Assembly: GCA_019637075.1 (NCBI GenBank)
Contig: JAHBWI010000002.1
Span: forward strand, 186,001 to 250,000
Length of the DNA stretch: 64,000 bases
Direction: 5' to 3'
Origin: Nitrospiraceae bacterium
GTDB lineage: Bacteria; Nitrospirota; Nitrospiria; Nitrospirales; Nitrospiraceae
This document shows positions 53,103 through 63,617 of this stretch, one piece after another. The position numbers and the translations under genes were made by a program. The notes beneath the pieces were generated by a model. The model was not told where the DNA came from and did no database searches. It was given only the letters and a program-made list of their open reading frames with translations. The stretch's first letter is position 1; the number at the start of each line of letters is the position of its first letter.

Positions 53103-53111
53103 CGGCCTCCT
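53103..53111 (-). promoter_or_regulatory. Oxidase A ribosome-binding site complementary to its leader loop
   Basis: The minus strand reads AGGAGGCCG just before ATG 53097. It is perfectly complementary over nine bases to CGGCCUCCU in the leader RNA hairpin (53224-53232). The pairing would hide the Shine-Dalgarno sequence, giving a simple translational switch. Confidence 0.55.
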
Positions 53112-53189: not shown

Positions 53190-53261
53190 GTCTGGCGGAG
53201 GCCAATTGCGTTGGAGGAACATCAGGAGGCCGGTCCTTCTATTCCGACTCCTCCGCCAGAC
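53190..53261 (-). promoter_or_regulatory. Structured leader RNA element, copy A (three-way junction)
   Basis: A 72-nt element in the oxidase A leader. The outer stem is 12 perfect pairs (53250-53261 with 53190-53201). Inside are hairpin 1 (53216-53245), built as GGAA/UUCC, a 4x4 internal loop that could hold tandem G-A pairs, and AGGA/UCCU around loop CCGGCC; and hairpin 2 (53202-53214, CCAA/UUGG). Its apical 12-mer GGACCGGCCUCC (complement of 53225-53236) is identical in copy B while all stems differ. It lies 92 bases before the start codon and 54 after the predicted transcription start. Confidence 0.65.
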
Positions 53262-53325: not shown

Positions 53326-53341
53326 AGCAATTAATGTTCCT
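53326..53341 (-). promoter_or_regulatory. Sigma-54 promoter of oxidase operon A
   Basis: The minus strand reads AGGAACATTAATTGCT: GG at -24, exactly ten bases, GC at -12, with TTGCT intact. Start of transcription would be near 53315, giving a leader of about 218 bases that contains the structured element. Two enhancer-type dyads lie about 90 and 122 bases upstream of it. Confidence 0.7.
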
Positions 53342-55278: not shown

Positions 55279-55686
55279 CTACGCGCCGTTGTCCCGGATC
55301 GCCTGCAGCCGTTTGACCGCTTCCTTCACCGCAGTGCGAGCTTTGACGGCTGGGTTCAAACTCATGCCGGGATCGACCTTGTCCCCTAGTTCGGCAACCC
55401 GTCGGCAATGCTTAATAGCATCTTGCAAGTGCGGCACTGCGGCCTTGGCCTCTTCGTTGTTGGACGGCAGCTGTTTCAAAATCGATTCGGCGTGCTTGGT
55501 CACTTCCCCGCAGTGGTGGACAATCGCTGAACCGTCCCCCATTCCGCCGTGCATGACCATCTCTTCGGCGTCCTTGAGCATCGCCTTGCCGGCTTCCTGC
55601 ACATCTTTGGGTGACCAGGCATAGACCACCGCCCCCCCCAACGCCGCACAGAGAACTATCGCCCGCCCCACCTGCTTTGCATACAT
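55279..55686 (-). CDS. SmbP-like small metal-binding periplasmic protein (operon B)
   Basis: 135 residues. Short signal (AIVLCAALGGAVVYA), then the SmbP-like pattern: EAGKAMLKDAEEMVMHGGMGDGSAIVHHCGEVTKHAESIL and LQDAIKHCRRVAELGDKVDPGMSLNPA. It aligns along its whole mature length with the operon A copy at 45949. The ATG overlaps the stop of the previous gene (TGATG). Probably a periplasmic copper buffer, by analogy with SmbP. A gap of 151 bases follows to the convergent gene. Confidence 0.82.
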   Translation of the reverse strand: MYAKQVGRAIVLCAALGGAVVYAWSPKDVQEAGKAMLKDAEEMVMHGGMGDGSAIVHHCGEVTKHAESILKQLPSNNEEAKAAVPHLQDAIKHCRRVAELGDKVDPGMSLNPAVKARTAVKEAVKRLQAIRDNGA

Positions 55687-56207
55687 CAAAACACCCGACC
55701 TTTCTTTACCGGAGGATGATCCGCCGGCGTCAGTCGGCGATATAACTCGTGAAACTGCTCCGTTGTCAAGGCGGGGTTTTCCAATTCCTTCATCGTCGCC
55801 TCATCGATCTGGTACTCGACGGTATCGTCGAAGCTCGACGAGGCGATCGCGATGTAATGGGCCGGAAACAGGCGCTCCGGCAGTAGGATCGTCACGGCAC
55901 CGTTGTAGCGTTTCGCCAACCGCAGCGCCGCTTGGGCACGCGCAACGGAGACGCTTGGTCCCATCCCGACGTTAGTCGGCGGGCGTCCCGCCTTCATGAA
56001 CTGCAGATGTACATTCTCCAGCCCGGCCTCGGCGAACTCCAGCTTGATCGTGTTCGCTTGGGCGCGGTGTTCTTGCACGAACACGGCTTCAACCCTGCCC
56101 ACCGAGAGGCCATCCTCCTCGGCGGCGAGCGGCAACCCGGCCGCTCCCGCCACAAGGGCCAATACACAACACATCCGGCGACACAGGTCGATCATGCTCT
56201 TGCTCAC
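55686..56207 (-). CDS. Periplasmic protein of unknown function (operon B)
   Basis: 173 residues from a GTG that overlaps the cupredoxin stop (GTGA); ATG 56195 is an alternative. Signal peptide to PLAAEE. Paralogue of 46964-47464, keeping NVHLQFMKAGRPPTNVGMG, YNGAVTILLPERLFPAHYIAIASSSFDDTVEYQID and FHELYRRLTP. Unknown family, found here only in the oxidase operons. Confidence 0.75.
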   Translation of the reverse strand: MSKSMIDLCRRMCCVLALVAGAAGLPLAAEEDGLSVGRVEAVFVQEHRAQANTIKLEFAEAGLENVHLQFMKAGRPPTNVGMGPSVSVARAQAALRLAKRYNGAVTILLPERLFPAHYIAIASSSFDDTVEYQIDEATMKELENPALTTEQFHELYRRLTPADHPPVKKGRVF

Positions 56208-57697: not shown

Positions 57698-60316
57698 CTA
57701 GTTCGTCTTCATGGACACCGGTACGGTTTGCACCGGTGCCTGTTCCTCAGCCTGTTGAGTCGCCGGCACCTGTCCGCTCAAGGGCAGAATCGCCCGGCTG
57801 TCGCGGTCCAGTACCTTCAACATGCCCCAGTGACCGGCATCGAGATAGCCAGGCCGCTGGTTCAGCCACAGGTAGTCGCCGGGGATTGAATTCGGTCCTC
57901 CTGCTCCACCGTGCAGCCACGCGTTGATGACCTCCGCACCGCCGAACTCCATGGTGCTCACGAGGTCCGCGCCGCTCAGGTACGGCTCATGTTTCCACTC
58001 ATGACCCGAGACGCTGAAGAGTTGCACCTGTTCGCTGAAGGCGCCCAGGACGTGAATCACGACGGGATCGCCGACGTGCGCCGCAATGGTCGGCGTCACC
58101 GGTTGATCGCCCGTTTTCACGCAGGCAAATACTTCGCTATAGGCACAGCCCTTTTCGGTTCGATAATCGGTCGGTTCCGACCGGTAGTTCACCGCCGTCA
58201 CACCGGCCACCCTTTGGATGTAGGGCATGAAGCTGGTGCCGATGATGTTGTCTTCATCTTGGAAGAGCAACGCGAACGACCGGTAGTTCTGCCGGGTTTC
58301 ATTCCCCGCCACACTCCGATCAACGAACACGTCCGCGCGCCAGGAGCTCTTCTGGGCCAAGTCCTCGCCCGTCACCGGGTCCCGATACTGCGAGCCCTTG
58401 GGACCGATGATGATGGCGCCGAACAGGCCGTTCCGCGGGTTCTCGACCACGTTGCCCCAGTCCTGAATCAGGGCCGCGTTCTCGCCGAACTCCGGATGGG
58501 CGAAGAAGGTATACATCCGGCTCTGGCCGGGCGCCACGGTCTGGTCGCCCGGATTGTTGCCGGCGTTGATACCCATGGACTCCTTCGGATCATAGGCCAG
58601 GTTGTCCACGTGGAACCCGGCCCGTTCCTTAGCCATCTCGTTCTTGAGATTGACCTTGATGCAATCGCCCACGTTCACGTGCAGCGTCAATGGGCTCGGC
58701 TCGAGACTGCCCGAGGCGACCTTCGTCATTTCGCCTTCGAGCACATACATCTTGCCGCTCTCATTGCCGAGGACCATCTTCCGTTCCAGGTCCACTTCCA
58801 TCGCACCCGGCGTTCCCTTGTTGTAGCGGATCGCCTTATCAATGGCGGCCACGTTGAACGTCTTCACCGGCGCATCAGCCGGGCACACCGACTTGGCCTG
58901 CTGCGGGATCTCCTCGCGGCCCGGGAGCGACTGCAACGTACCATCCGCCTTGTCGAGCACCCGGAAGAGGCCCCAGCTGCCTTCTGCGAAATGCGACGCG
59001 CGACCGCTGTAGTACATATAGTCGCCCGCCATCTGCGGCTGACGAGCCCAGCGGATGGAACCGCCGTGCAGGTGATGCGAGTGCACGATTTCGGAGCCGC
59101 CCGCCATCCGGAACTTGGCAGGATCGCCAAGGTACGAACGCGGGATCGTGGTCGCCGGATCGCCGAACGTATAGGATCCGTAGGCCATCGACTCGTCGCC
59201 GTAGAAGCCCATATGGGCCTGCAATTCGATCCGCGTGCCGTGCGGCTCACTGCGATAGTTCAGCAAACGCGCTCCCGGACGATACGAGTCGGTATGGGCA
59301 TCGCGCTGCGGCAACATTTCGCCCTTCTTGTTCAAGAGGCGGAACGCTTCGTCTCCTGCTTCATGATAGAAAATCGCAAACTCACGGAAGTCCGGGCCGG
59401 TCGGGTCTTCGATCATCGCTTCCCAACCGCTCGTCATCGGCTTGCCGTCGAAGGGGCTCAAGTAGCGCGAGCCGCGAGGCTCGACGACGAGCATGCCGAT
59501 CAAGCCCTGGTTGAACTGATCACGCGAGGCATGAGAACGGAAGAACCGGGCGCCCTCCTGGGTGTCCGGCTTGATGTACCACTCGAAACTCTGCTGGCCG
59601 CCCGCCGGGACCGTGGCTTCGGGATTCGACGGCGTGGCCGGCTTCCCGGTGGAAGCCACCACCATCGAGGACCCGTTGATGATGAGATTGGTCGCCTCCT
59701 CGGTGATGCCGTTGTGGAGCATCAGCTTGAGACAGTCGCCTTGGTTGGCCCGAATCACGAGCGGCTGGATGACATCGCCCTGCAAGCCGTTCGAGACGGC
59801 TCCGGGATCGTCTTCCTTATCTCTCGCCGTCCTGTTGGCCGTCTCTTCGGCTCGGGCCTTCTCCACGTTTTCGGTCAACACGTACATGTAGCCGGGGAAA
59901 TAATCCAGGAATCGGCTCAACGTAATTTCCACGTTGATCGCCGATACGTGATACTCCTTCACCGGTGCGTTGGCCGGACAACGCTGCCCATCGCCCACTT
60001 TCACTGCGTCATCCGCAACCAACAATACACCTTGCTGGAGCATATGACTGTTGGCCCCTTGGCTGTACCCGCCTTTTTGCCCAATGTACTCCTGCTGCCG
60101 CTTCACCTCCTCCATCATGCGGTCACGCAAAACCGACCCGCCATCGCGGTAGATGACTTTCTCCGACGACGCCGTTCCGGTGTCGCCTTTGTGGCTGTGC
60201 GGATCCGCTGCGAATCCCATGGGGGATGTCAGCAGGCTGCTCGCCAGCAGCACGGCGGGTAAGCCCGCCGCCAGTCCAGCCCTTCGGCGCTTCTTGAAAC
60301 CGAACCGCCTTCTCAT
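57698..60316 (-). CDS. Two-module multicopper-oxidase-like protein with hybrid first module (operon B)
   Basis: 872 residues. Signal peptide with a basic start (MRRRFGFKKRRRAGLAAGLPAVLL). It aligns with the 1580-residue operon A oxidase from end to end except for one missing block of 709 codons: RWARQP of module 1 is joined directly to QMAGDY of module 2 (junction at 59035/59036). The result is a hybrid module that keeps HSHHLHGG but loses H-C-H-x3-H. In addition FHSHASRD has become FRSHASRD. Few copper ligands remain, so it may be structural or have altered chemistry. AAGGAGACCGG precedes ATG 60316. Confidence 0.88.
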   Translation of the reverse strand: MRRRFGFKKRRRAGLAAGLPAVLLASSLLTSPMGFAADPHSHKGDTGTASSEKVIYRDGGSVLRDRMMEEVKRQQEYIGQKGGYSQGANSHMLQQGVLLVADDAVKVGDGQRCPANAPVKEYHVSAINVEITLSRFLDYFPGYMYVLTENVEKARAEETANRTARDKEDDPGAVSNGLQGDVIQPLVIRANQGDCLKLMLHNGITEEATNLIINGSSMVVASTGKPATPSNPEATVPAGGQQSFEWYIKPDTQEGARFFRSHASRDQFNQGLIGMLVVEPRGSRYLSPFDGKPMTSGWEAMIEDPTGPDFREFAIFYHEAGDEAFRLLNKKGEMLPQRDAHTDSYRPGARLLNYRSEPHGTRIELQAHMGFYGDESMAYGSYTFGDPATTIPRSYLGDPAKFRMAGGSEIVHSHHLHGGSIRWARQPQMAGDYMYYSGRASHFAEGSWGLFRVLDKADGTLQSLPGREEIPQQAKSVCPADAPVKTFNVAAIDKAIRYNKGTPGAMEVDLERKMVLGNESGKMYVLEGEMTKVASGSLEPSPLTLHVNVGDCIKVNLKNEMAKERAGFHVDNLAYDPKESMGINAGNNPGDQTVAPGQSRMYTFFAHPEFGENAALIQDWGNVVENPRNGLFGAIIIGPKGSQYRDPVTGEDLAQKSSWRADVFVDRSVAGNETRQNYRSFALLFQDEDNIIGTSFMPYIQRVAGVTAVNYRSEPTDYRTEKGCAYSEVFACVKTGDQPVTPTIAAHVGDPVVIHVLGAFSEQVQLFSVSGHEWKHEPYLSGADLVSTMEFGGAEVINAWLHGGAGGPNSIPGDYLWLNQRPGYLDAGHWGMLKVLDRDSRAILPLSGQVPATQQAEEQAPVQTVPVSMKTN

Positions 60317-60318
60317 AC

Positions 60319-60328
60319 ACCGGTCTCC
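60319..60328 (-). promoter_or_regulatory. Oxidase B ribosome-binding site complementary to its leader loop
   Basis: The minus strand GGAGACCGGT before ATG 60316 can pair with ACCGGCCUCC of the leader hairpin (60548-60557): nine of ten positions, with one A-C mismatch. This mirrors the pairing in operon A although the two ribosome sites differ. Confidence 0.5.
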
Positions 60329-60510
60329 TTCTGCAGCCGCCCTCCATGACGAGAGCGGCAATCTGTGGGTGACTCCGTCCGTCTGAACCACACTCAGATC
60401 TGATGATTGGTACATCCACCGATCCGGCTGCCTGTGCAACGGATCGCTAGATCGACGAATCCCCAGAAGCTTGTCACCTGCCTCCCTCATGCCTCACCGG
60501 CCCTATTGGT

Positions 60511-60581
60511 GCTGGTGAAGTGCATCTCCCCGAGACGCGGGTTATTCGGAGGCCGGTCCGAATCCCGAATACTTCACCAGC
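60511..60581 (-). promoter_or_regulatory. Structured leader RNA element, copy B (three-way junction)
   Basis: 71 nt. The outer stem is 11 perfect pairs (60571-60581 with 60511-60521). Hairpin 1 has a GGG/CCC stem, a 2-base bulge, AUUCGGA/UCCGAAU and loop CCGGCC (60539-60566). Hairpin 2 has seven pairs, one of them G-U, around a GGG loop (60522-60538). The apical GGACCGGCCUCC is identical to copy A. The element begins about three bases after the predicted transcription start and ends 194 bases before the start codon. Confidence 0.65.
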
Positions 60582-60594
60582 GCCCCCACGCTTC

Positions 60595-60610
60595 CGCAAT
60601 AATGATGCCT
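60595..60610 (-). promoter_or_regulatory. Sigma-54 promoter of oxidase operon B
   Basis: The minus strand reads AGGCATCATTATTGCG: GG, ten bases, GC, with TTGC intact. Transcription would start near 60584, giving a leader of about 268 bases. Same geometry as the operon A and regulator promoters. Confidence 0.7.
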
Positions 60611-60861: not shown

Positions 60862-62067
60862 TCAGAGATGGCGGATTTGTTCAGGGAGGTTGGCGCAGCC
60901 AAGCAACGGTCCATCGGCCCCAATAGCCGCACGCTCCGCCACGCGCTGCAATTCCCGCACATTGCCGGGCCAGGCATATTGGCACAGGTGGGCAAGCGCA
61001 TCCGGCGTGAAACCGAATCCTGATACCGGCTCGGGATACTTACGCTGCAACAGCGGCGTCATGAACACTCGCGCCAACTGCTCTAGATCTTCCAACCGTT
61101 CGCGCAGCGGAGGTACGGAGACAGGCACGACACTGAGGTGCTGGTAGAGATCCTCGCGAAATTCGCCCGACTGACAGGCCTGCTCAAGCGGCTTGGTCGA
61201 CGCGGCGATCACACGAATATCCAACCGGTAGAACTCACTCCCATTGACCCGTCTGGCGCGCTGTTCCTTCAGTGCGCGCAACAACTTCGCCTGAATGCGT
61301 AGGCTCAAACCCCAAACTTCGTCCAAGAATAGGGTGCCGCCGTGAGCGGCTTCCAGCGAGCCCGACCGTGCGCCGCTCGATTTTGTCGGACGCAATGCTT
61401 CGAGGCCGAACAACTCGGCCTCGACCATCGCCTCCTCCGCCCCCAGACAGTCCACAGGCATGAACAGCTTGCTGTGCCGTGGACTGATGGCATGGATTTG
61501 ACGAGCGATCCGCTCCTTGCCACTCCCATTTTCACCGAACAACAGGACGGCGGCTTCGGTCTGAGCAACTCGGTCGACCAATGCGCGGACTGACCGGATG
61601 GCGAGACTAGTTCCAGACAACACCGGCTCGCCGCCTGTCTCCGGGCCTCGTCGTGCTGCTGCCTGCTTCGCAATAGGCTTCTCAGTTGCGACGTCGGCCG
61701 GCTCGTCTCCCAACGCCCGCTGAATCACCGTCCGGAGTTCCCTGCCGGTAAACGGTTTCGCGAGGTAATCAAAGGCACCGTGACGCATGGAACTCACGGC
61801 GGTGCGAATCGAGGCATAGGCCGTCAACAACACCACCTTGATCGCGGGGTCAATGCGCTTCGCGGCTTTTAACAGATCGATTCCGTCCAGCCCTGGCATA
61901 CGCAGATCGGTGACCAACACCTGGGGATGCTCGCGCTCGATGGCATCGAGCGCCCGCTGCGGATCAGTCTCGACAATGCAGTTGCACGAGGGCCCGGTCA
62001 GGATCCGTCGGCAATTTTCGACCGCGTCCGGCTCGTCGTCGACGATGAGGATCTTCGTCAGTGGCAT
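60862..62067 (-). CDS. Degenerate NtrC-type response regulator (no GAFTGA, no HTH)
   Basis: 401 residues. The receiver domain is intact (ILIVDDEPDA, phospho-Asp in VLVTDLRMPGLDG, LLTAY, Lys in YLAKPF). The AAA+ domain has a Walker A (GENGSGKERIA), Walker B (GTLFLDEVWG) and the [11 protein letters not shown] segment. Where sigma-54 activators have GAFTGA, this protein has LRPTKSS. It also stops right after the AAA+ domain, without the Fis-type helix-turn-helix. It therefore should neither contact sigma-54 nor bind DNA on its own; it may modulate the neighbouring regulator. GGGGA precedes the ATG, and it has its own dyad and promoter. Confidence 0.9.
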   Translation of the reverse strand: MPLTKILIVDDEPDAVENCRRILTGPSCNCIVETDPQRALDAIEREHPQVLVTDLRMPGLDGIDLLKAAKRIDPAIKVVLLTAYASIRTAVSSMRHGAFDYLAKPFTGRELRTVIQRALGDEPADVATEKPIAKQAAARRGPETGGEPVLSGTSLAIRSVRALVDRVAQTEAAVLLFGENGSGKERIARQIHAISPRHSKLFMPVDCLGAEEAMVEAELFGLEALRPTKSSGARSGSLEAAHGGTLFLDEVWGLSLRIQAKLLRALKEQRARRVNGSEFYRLDIRVIAASTKPLEQACQSGEFREDLYQHLSVVPVSVPPLRERLEDLEQLARVFMTPLLQRKYPEPVSGFGFTPDALAHLCQYAWPGNVRELQRVAERAAIGADGPLLGCANLPEQIRHL

Positions 62068-62222: not shown

Positions 62223-63617
62223 CTAGGACTCGCGGAGTCCGTGACGTTTGACCATGCGCTCGATCGTCTTGCGATCGACGTTGGCTTCCTGCGCCGCATT
62301 CCCCATGTGCCAGTTATGACGTTTGAGCAGGTCTAGGAGGAAGGTCCGTTCGAAGGAACGAACCATTTCCTGTTTGGCTTCCTTGTAGGAGGCACCTTCC
62401 TGAGCCAAGGCCTCTTCCCGCAGGGCCGTCCTGAGACGTTCCGGCAAATGGCGGGCTTGAATGACCGGTCCGTCGGCCAGCGCTGATGCCCGTTCGATGA
62501 CATTTTGCAGCTCGCGCACGTTGCCGGGCCAGGCATACTGTTTCAACAGCGCCAGGGCCTCGACGGAAAACTGCGGTCCGCCAGGATAGGCTTGGCGGGC
62601 CATGAAGCGGCGAAGAAAGGCCTGTGCCAGGAGTTCGACATCTCCCTCCCGCTCCCGCAGCGGAGGCAACACGATTGGGATGACGTTAAGTCGGTAATAC
62701 AGATCCTCTCGGAACACACCCTTCTGACTCAGTTCCTCGAGGTCGCGGTTGGACGCGGCAATGACGCGGACATTGACGTCCGTGTACCTAGTGCCCCCGA
62801 CCCGCCTGACGTGACGCTCCTGTAGGACACGTAACAAACGCGCCTGGAGCGTGTGGCTCATCCCGCTCACCTCATCGAGAAACACCGTTCCCCCGTTGGC
62901 CACCTCGAACAGACCGGCTTTGGTCGCATGGGCGCCGGTAAACGCGCCGCGCTCGTGGCCGAACAACTCCGACTCCAGCAATGTATCCGGCATTGCCACG
63001 CAGTCCACCGGAACGAATGGTTTTGCCGACCGTTCGCTCTGCTCATGGACGGCAAGCGCGGCCAGTTCCTTGCCGGTTCCGCTTTCGCCGTAAATCAAAA
63101 TGTTTGCATCGGTCCGTGCCACCCGCTTGATCAGTTCCTTGACATCGACAACCGCTCGGCTCTTGCCGAGAATGCGGTCGGTGGCCCCCCGCTCCCCCTC
63201 CTGCCCAACGGCCTCCGACTGAATCGCCTCCCCGTCTGAGCCGGGTTCCGATAGCTTGGTTAAGGCACGGCGGGCGACGTCTTCCAAGTCCTTGCTGCTA
63301 TAGGGTTTCAGAATGTAATCAAGCGCGCCACGCCGCAGGCATTCCACGGCCGTCTGAACCGTCGCGTAGGCGGTCATCAATACCACGCCGATATTGGGAT
63401 CCACTCGCTTGGTCTCAGCCAGCACGCCGATCCCATCCAGCACCGGCATGCGCAGATCGGTAAATACCAATTCCGGACGCTCATGCTGGATGCGCTCGAT
63501 CGCGCGCAATGGATCGCTCTCCGTCATGCACTCGTAGCCCAAACGGCTCAAGATGCGCCGGCAATTGTCCAGCGCATCGATTTCATCGTCGACCACTAAT
63601 ATTTTGCCTGTCCCCAT
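62223..63617 (-). CDS. NtrC-type sigma-54-dependent response regulator
   Basis: 464 residues with all parts. Receiver domain: [14 protein letters not shown], phospho-Asp in [23 protein letters not shown], Lys in YILKPYS. AAA+ domain: Walker [18 protein letters not shown] in [18 protein letters not shown], Walker [24 protein letters not shown]-terminal Fis-type helix-turn-helix follows ([23 protein letters not shown]). The start overlaps the kinase stop, and AGGAGG lies before the ATG. Most likely the activator that binds the ATGGGRCG dyads before both oxidase operons. Confidence 0.96.

Follow-up and report, generated by a model that had tools for sequence, protein, structure and literature searches.

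Upstream of two genes for multicopper oxidases in the window (the whole stretch of 64,000 nt analyzed here) lies an element of 71–72 nt with a closing stem, a tall hairpin and a short hairpin. The question raised by this locus is what kind of element it is, and what the conserved loop of the tall hairpin does for the genes behind it. Coordinates are collected in Table 1.

A conserved leader RNA of MnxG-like oxidase genes

Both copies, folded alone, gave a three-way junction, with energies of −37.4 kcal/mol for copy A and −37.8 kcal/mol for copy B, and none of 200 shuffles equalled either value (z-scores in Table 1). The minus strand is the strand of both junction elements and of the oxidase genes. 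Folding thus confirmed the two junctions of the first-pass annotation, and its self-complementary closing stems were found as perfect P1 helices of 12 bp (copy A) and 11 bp (copy B). The same annotation called the closing stems unrelated in sequence, which was overstated, since the two P1 helices can be aligned as homologues (CTGGYGRAG) with compensatory differences. It also described the apical segment of the tall hairpin as the only identical part; the loop is indeed identical (GGACCGGCCUCC), and 45 of the 75 aligned columns are identical in all. The two oxidase operons carry the element as described, but a third copy stands before a third oxidase in the same genome (G000:C2:761770-761844).

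Table 1. Positions of the leader RNAs, their loops and complementary sites, the oxidase genes and the regulatory features in the window.
Feature	Position	Strand	Evidence or remark
Copy A, three-way-junction leader RNA	53190..53261	−	Fold z −4.78; covariance-model match in own genome; family covariation
Copy A helices	P1 53250-53261/53190-53201; P2 53216-53245; P3 53202-53214	−	
Copy A apical loop GGACCGGCCUCC, putative anti-RBS	53225..53236	−	Exact match; conserved in aligned homologues
RBS of oxidase A, GGAGGCCG	53103..53110	−	Loop-complementary over 8 nt
Sigma-54-type promoter GGAACATTAATTGC, 65 nt before P1 of copy A	53327..53340	−	Motif
MnxG-like multicopper oxidase A, 1580 aa	48355..53097	−	Pfam Cu-oxidase_3/_2; PDB MnxG 9bxa, E 4e-92
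Copy B, three-way-junction leader RNA	60511..60581	−	Fold z −5.56; covariance-model match; family covariation
Copy B helices	P1 60571-60581/60511-60521; P2 60539-60566; P3 60522-60538	−	
Copy B apical loop GGACCGGCCUCC, putative anti-RBS	60548..60559	−	Exact match
GGCCGGU in leader B, complementary to the loop and proximal (8 nt after P1)	60496..60502	−	p 0.08 vs shuffles for leader B alone
RBS of oxidase B, GGAGACCGG	60320..60328	−	Loop-complementary except one position
Sigma-54-type promoter GGCATCATTATTGC, ends 14 nt before P1 of copy B	60596..60609	−	Motif
MnxG-like multicopper oxidase B, 872 aa, without the middle of A	57698..60316	−	Pfam; alignment to A
NtrC-type sigma-54-activating response regulator adjoining oxidase B, candidate activator	60862..62067	−	Sigma54_activat E 9.8e-47; Response_reg
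Second NtrC-type sigma-54-activating response regulator, candidate activator	62223..63617	−	Sigma54_activat E 1.6e-68

Of the 175 genomes of this family, a covariance model of the two copies detected the element in 148 and a model of 28 sequences in 153; the E-values are rough and both models were built from members, but the covariation is independent of the models. Among 396 genomes drawn from the phylum, 113 carried the element, all in one order (this family or its sister family), and none was found outside the order. The sister family held it in 12 genomes. In 69 aligned homologues 21 of 26 pairs covary, compared with 13.4 in column shuffles and 9–12 with the structure slid, and 91% of the cells are paired (81.5% in column shuffles, at most 57% with the structure slid). 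These values, above both controls, exclude a chance origin. All 11 pairs of P1 covary and 99.7% of its cells are paired; the 35 G-U and zero A-C cells in P1 indicate that the gene-sense strand is the RNA.

The window gave no match to Rfam 15 at the gathering threshold and so no assignment to a known family, and a relaxed search of the six element loci returned only one chance match, away from the element. No earlier description of this structured RNA was found in the literature. The junctions are therefore members of an undescribed structured RNA family conserved across Nitrospirales. Two of the checks proposed in the first-pass annotation bore out its view of the element as a functional leader RNA in which changes are compensatory and one loop is conserved: the covariance-model search of relatives found further copies upstream of homologous oxidases, and the covariation was present.

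Several other classes were rejected. A DNA palindrome, a mobile repeat or an attC-like element does not fit, because G-U without A-C cells marks one RNA strand and all copies share a constant gene context. A known riboswitch was rejected for lack of an Rfam match, and an intrinsic terminator at P1 because the U-tracts after P1 were unconserved by inspection of the downstream sequences.

The gene after the junction was a homologue of oxidase A or B in 94 of 94 resolvable copies; four further copies were too near a contig end or had no such homologue in the sequence available. The junction-linked proteins have about 1600 aa, and MnxG is their nearest solved structure in sequence. With the NCBIfam MnxG equivalog NF041487 (cut-off 3100 bits) oxidase A scored 147 bits and oxidase B 61 bits, far under the cut-off, and we therefore name the oxidases only MnxG-like. 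Oxidase B aligns to residues of about 32–425 and 904–1567 of A, as if by internal deletion of the ~1600-aa architecture.

A sigma-54 site (GG[CA]A[CT]-N5-TTGC) was present upstream in 95 of 98 copies, compared with 0.6 in shuffles; these −24/−12 elements (GG-N10-GC) stand at a consistent distance from the RNA. In the main type the TTGC end of the promoter lies 13–15 nt before P1 (76 copies), and in A-type copies the site lies about 44–65 nt upstream of P1. As the site usually ends 13–15 nt before P1, the sigma-54 transcript is predicted to begin with this RNA. From the usual promoter-to-start distance, a main-type sigma-54 transcript would start 2–4 nt before P1.

Complementarity of the loop to ribosome-binding sites

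The only near-invariant part of the RNA is the loop GGAYYGGCCUCC (GGAYYGGCYUCY in the aligned homologues), which occurs as GGACCGGCCUCC with the variants GGACUGGCCUCC and GGAUUGGCCUCC. Judged by its complementarity to the RBSs of oxidase genes, the loop is an anti-Shine-Dalgarno, and this match to the RBSs of both its own gene and a paralogue would account for its conservation. The own RBS, GGAGGCCG, matches the loop over 8–9 bp. In a comparison of 76 distinct loop/RBS combinations, the distinct RBSs were GGAGGCCG in 50 of 74 GGAGG-type leaders versus 2 of 47 control genes, the GGAGG-site genes of this one genome (p = 3.5e-13; related leader sequences are not independent, so that p-values are optimistic). 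The duplex energy of the loop with its own RBS was −17.6 kcal/mol (A or C) and −15.1 kcal/mol (B), and −15 to −18 kcal/mol overall. Many leaders also carry a further proximal complement, often GGAGGCCGGU, about 34–40 nt after P1; the longest proximal complement had a mean of 6.9 nt versus 4.7 nt in shuffles, and A-type leaders lack it. A UU/AA change between loop and own RBS was set aside as proof of cis pairing, because it is a single event and energetically neutral. The proximal GGAGGCCGG was rejected as the RBS of a leader peptide, as no consistent start codon was seen by inspection. Many main-type leaders (e.g., L036, L039, L073) have a GC-rich hairpin, CCGCC...GGCGG, about 8–12 nt before the RBS.

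The second target was found in the genome itself. In its 4.06 Mb, GGACCGGCCTCC occurs five times on both strands, and three of these are the junction loops. The other two run in the opposite sense in the leader of a fourth MnxG-like oxidase (contig C10), which reads AAGGAGGCCGGTCC-ATG up to the start codon. Here the 12-mer GGAGGCCGGTCC is the RBS, abuts the ATG and matches the loop perfectly over 12 nt (GGAGGCCGGUCC-AUG). Neither a junction nor a sigma-54 site precedes this gene. AGGAGGCCGGTCCATG occurs once more 300 nt ahead of the C10 oxidase (L010:1167-1181, G000:C10), where it starts an ORF of 11 codons (MNFFVLLLRDT) and is flanked by the 7-bp palindrome AAATTCA/TGAATTT; this second copy is possibly a leader peptide or a decoy.

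AGGAGGCCGGTCCATG was found in 75 of 175 family genomes and in none of the reversed control. In the 20 genomes read and 13 of the second family, all were orthologues of the same one oxidase, with no junction loop or sigma-54 site upstream; many of these orthologues have a TTGACA promoter 125–210 nt upstream. As selection by the 12-mer pattern was to be avoided, 22 orthologues were picked by protein similarity, and 10–12 of their 12 RBS positions pair with the loop, compared with only 6–9 of 12 in five outgroup oxidases from genomes without the junction. Conservation is mostly above 80% at RBS positions −1 to −14 and near 40% in the flanks, in a profile that mixes pattern-found and protein-similarity-found oxidases. 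On this evidence the 12-mer is a conservation island in two families, absent from the outgroup oxidases, and the loop complement sits at the translation start of a second mRNA in both families, as for a trans-acting 5′-UTR antisense.

The duplex of the loop with the trans target had an energy of −27.3 kcal/mol. RNAcofold gains were small (−2.7 to −9.2), because the junction must unfold in the calculation, and kissing is outside its model. A few genomes (e.g., G043, G024, G312, G275, G281) keep the 12-mer RBS with the junction undetected at the search settings, so that, barring weak junctions that escaped detection, the 12-mer does not strictly depend on the junction. A comparison between genomes showed no trans covariation; for the RBS variants in g14 (GGAGGCCAGUCC) and g17 (GGAGGCCGAUCC), the copies read had no clear loop change to match. 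In two junction-less oxidases (L086:2969 and L102:2801) the RBS is GGAGGCCAGUCC, which differs from the loop complement by one mismatch. By protein the former belongs to the A type (82% identity), and a junction is present elsewhere in its genome.

These data also bear on a purely cis-acting loop, whose partners in a long-range pseudoknot would be limited to the downstream RBS of its own gene and a proximal competitor, with the paralogue RBS kept by ancestry. The strong enrichment of own RBSs for GGAGGCCG, proximal complements of 8–11 nt at a near-constant 34–40 nt after P1 in many lineages, and the junction always lying in an oxidase leader agree with such a loop, but own RBSs match over 8–9 nt, whereas the junction-less paralogue matches over 10–12 nt, including the four nucleotides before the AUG, with unconserved flanks. 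Ancestry alone would not hold a 12-mer amid drifting surroundings, and the outgroup oxidases are without it. We therefore consider cis pairing alone unlikely.

Proposed mechanism and remaining alternatives

It is fairly probable, given these complementarities, that the loop of this structured 5′ UTR pairs with RBSs and thereby controls the translation of oxidase paralogues, with a trans component; a cis component is probably present as well. More tentatively, we propose an mRNA-to-mRNA isoenzyme switch, in which the 5′ end of a sigma-54-induced oxidase mRNA would silence the sigma-70-driven paralogue by way of the 12-nt loop–RBS complementarity preserved throughout an order of nitrifiers. In this model the sigma-54-dependent mRNAs that encode the giant MnxG-like multicopper oxidases would carry the element as their structured 5′ UTR. 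P1 would close the three-way junction, at the transcript 5′ end in the main type and near it in the A type, and P2 would present the 12-nt anti-Shine-Dalgarno in its apical loop. Pairing of the loop with oxidase-gene RBSs would block translation. In trans it would form 12 bp with the RBS/start region of the paralogue with the sigma-70-type promoter. The weaker cis match of 8–9 bp would autoregulate, and in many lineages the leader also has the proximal GGAGGCCGGU, a would-be competitor for the loop. A sigma-54 programme, with the NtrC-type regulators beside oxidase B, would induce the oxidase, and its leader would then lower the constitutive isoenzyme and limit its own translation.

As the loop tip is the exact complement of the sister-gene RBS, the message of one enzyme may switch off translation of the other. 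Both partners can be folded as GGA/UCC-closed hexaloops (CCGGCC and GGCCGG), which makes a kissing start plausible. The data show structure, strand, gene linkage, promoter motif, complementarity, conservation and distribution, whereas the actual pairing, the direction of its effect and the signal are inferred; repression is the expected direction, because the RBS would be occluded.

A metabolite or metal riboswitch, in which loop–RBS pairing would depend on a ligand of the junction such as copper, manganese or nitrite, is very unlikely. A three-way junction in the 5′ UTR of a single enzyme family suits it, an RBS-linked expression platform is plausible, and an MnxG-like target could need metal feedback. 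However, apart from the anti-RBS loop, neither the junction nor the internal loops contain conserved nucleotides in the 69 homologues: the near-invariant columns are the loop, the GGA/UCC closing pairs and covarying stem pairs, so that no conserved pocket supports a ligand, and even the relaxed Rfam threshold gave no match. Of the first-pass reading, the functional leader RNA holds and the riboswitch idea, with copper or nitrite as ligand, is unsupported; the sigma-54 promoter, the anti-RBS loop and the trans target had been missed. About equally unlikely is an RNA-binding-protein site or 5′-end stabilizer, with a terminal P1 protecting the mRNA and a protein reading the loop: main-type P1 does start 13–15 nt after the −12 element, at about +2/+3, but A-type copies lie 44–65 nt downstream of the promoter, stabilization leaves the loop sequence conservation unexplained, and a protein leaves the exact reverse complement of paralogue RBSs unexplained.

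Relation to known regulatory RNAs

In Listeria the SAM riboswitches SreA and SreB act in trans on prfA mRNA (PMC8079631). The trans action of SreA, like that of the Rli51 leader, is the closest known parallel in behaviour. SreA resembles the switch proposed here in that the structured 5′ UTR of one operon pairs in trans with the 5′ UTR of another mRNA and impedes translation (PMC8079631). SreA has a SAM aptamer and is freed by termination, and its pairing site lies about 80 nt ahead of the SD (PMC8079631), whereas the Nitrospirales leader is without a known aptamer or terminator, its loop complements the RBS itself, and the putative target gene is paralogous to the one downstream of the leader. 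Rli51, from the 5′ UTR of mpl in Listeria, is a 5′UTR-derived RNA reported to be active in cis and trans (PMC11394854); unlike the Nitrospirales leader, to which it is unrelated in sequence and host, it is attenuation-based and without complementarity to a paralogue RBS. If the proposed model is right, the leader would work like SreA and Rli51 and be a member of neither.

RNAIII-type anti-SD hairpin loops are C-rich and pair with the SD, and the CopA/CopT kissing-loop antisense pair initiates by loop–loop contact. These are stand-alone or plasmid RNAs, unlike conserved leaders of sigma-54 mRNAs. The SMK box (SAM-III) riboswitch is a three-way junction with SD/anti-SD pairing, in which the SD lies inside the junction and conserved core residues bind SAM; in the Nitrospirales leader the RBS is about 70–340 nt away and there is no conserved core.

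Nitrospirales, the order across which this structured RNA family is conserved, is central to nitrification. If the model is true, isoenzyme switching would have a simple route, in which a 5′ UTR is a dedicated antisense against the RBS of a paralogous enzyme. With the leader RNA, the regulation and the role of the MnxG-like oxidases also become testable.

Regarding the neighbourhood of these oxidases in the window, both NtrC-type regulators near oxidase B carry receiver domains. A gene for a small metal-binding protein (SMBP) lies at 55279-55689 on the minus strand, and CarboxypepD_reg-domain genes adjoin both oxidases A and B.
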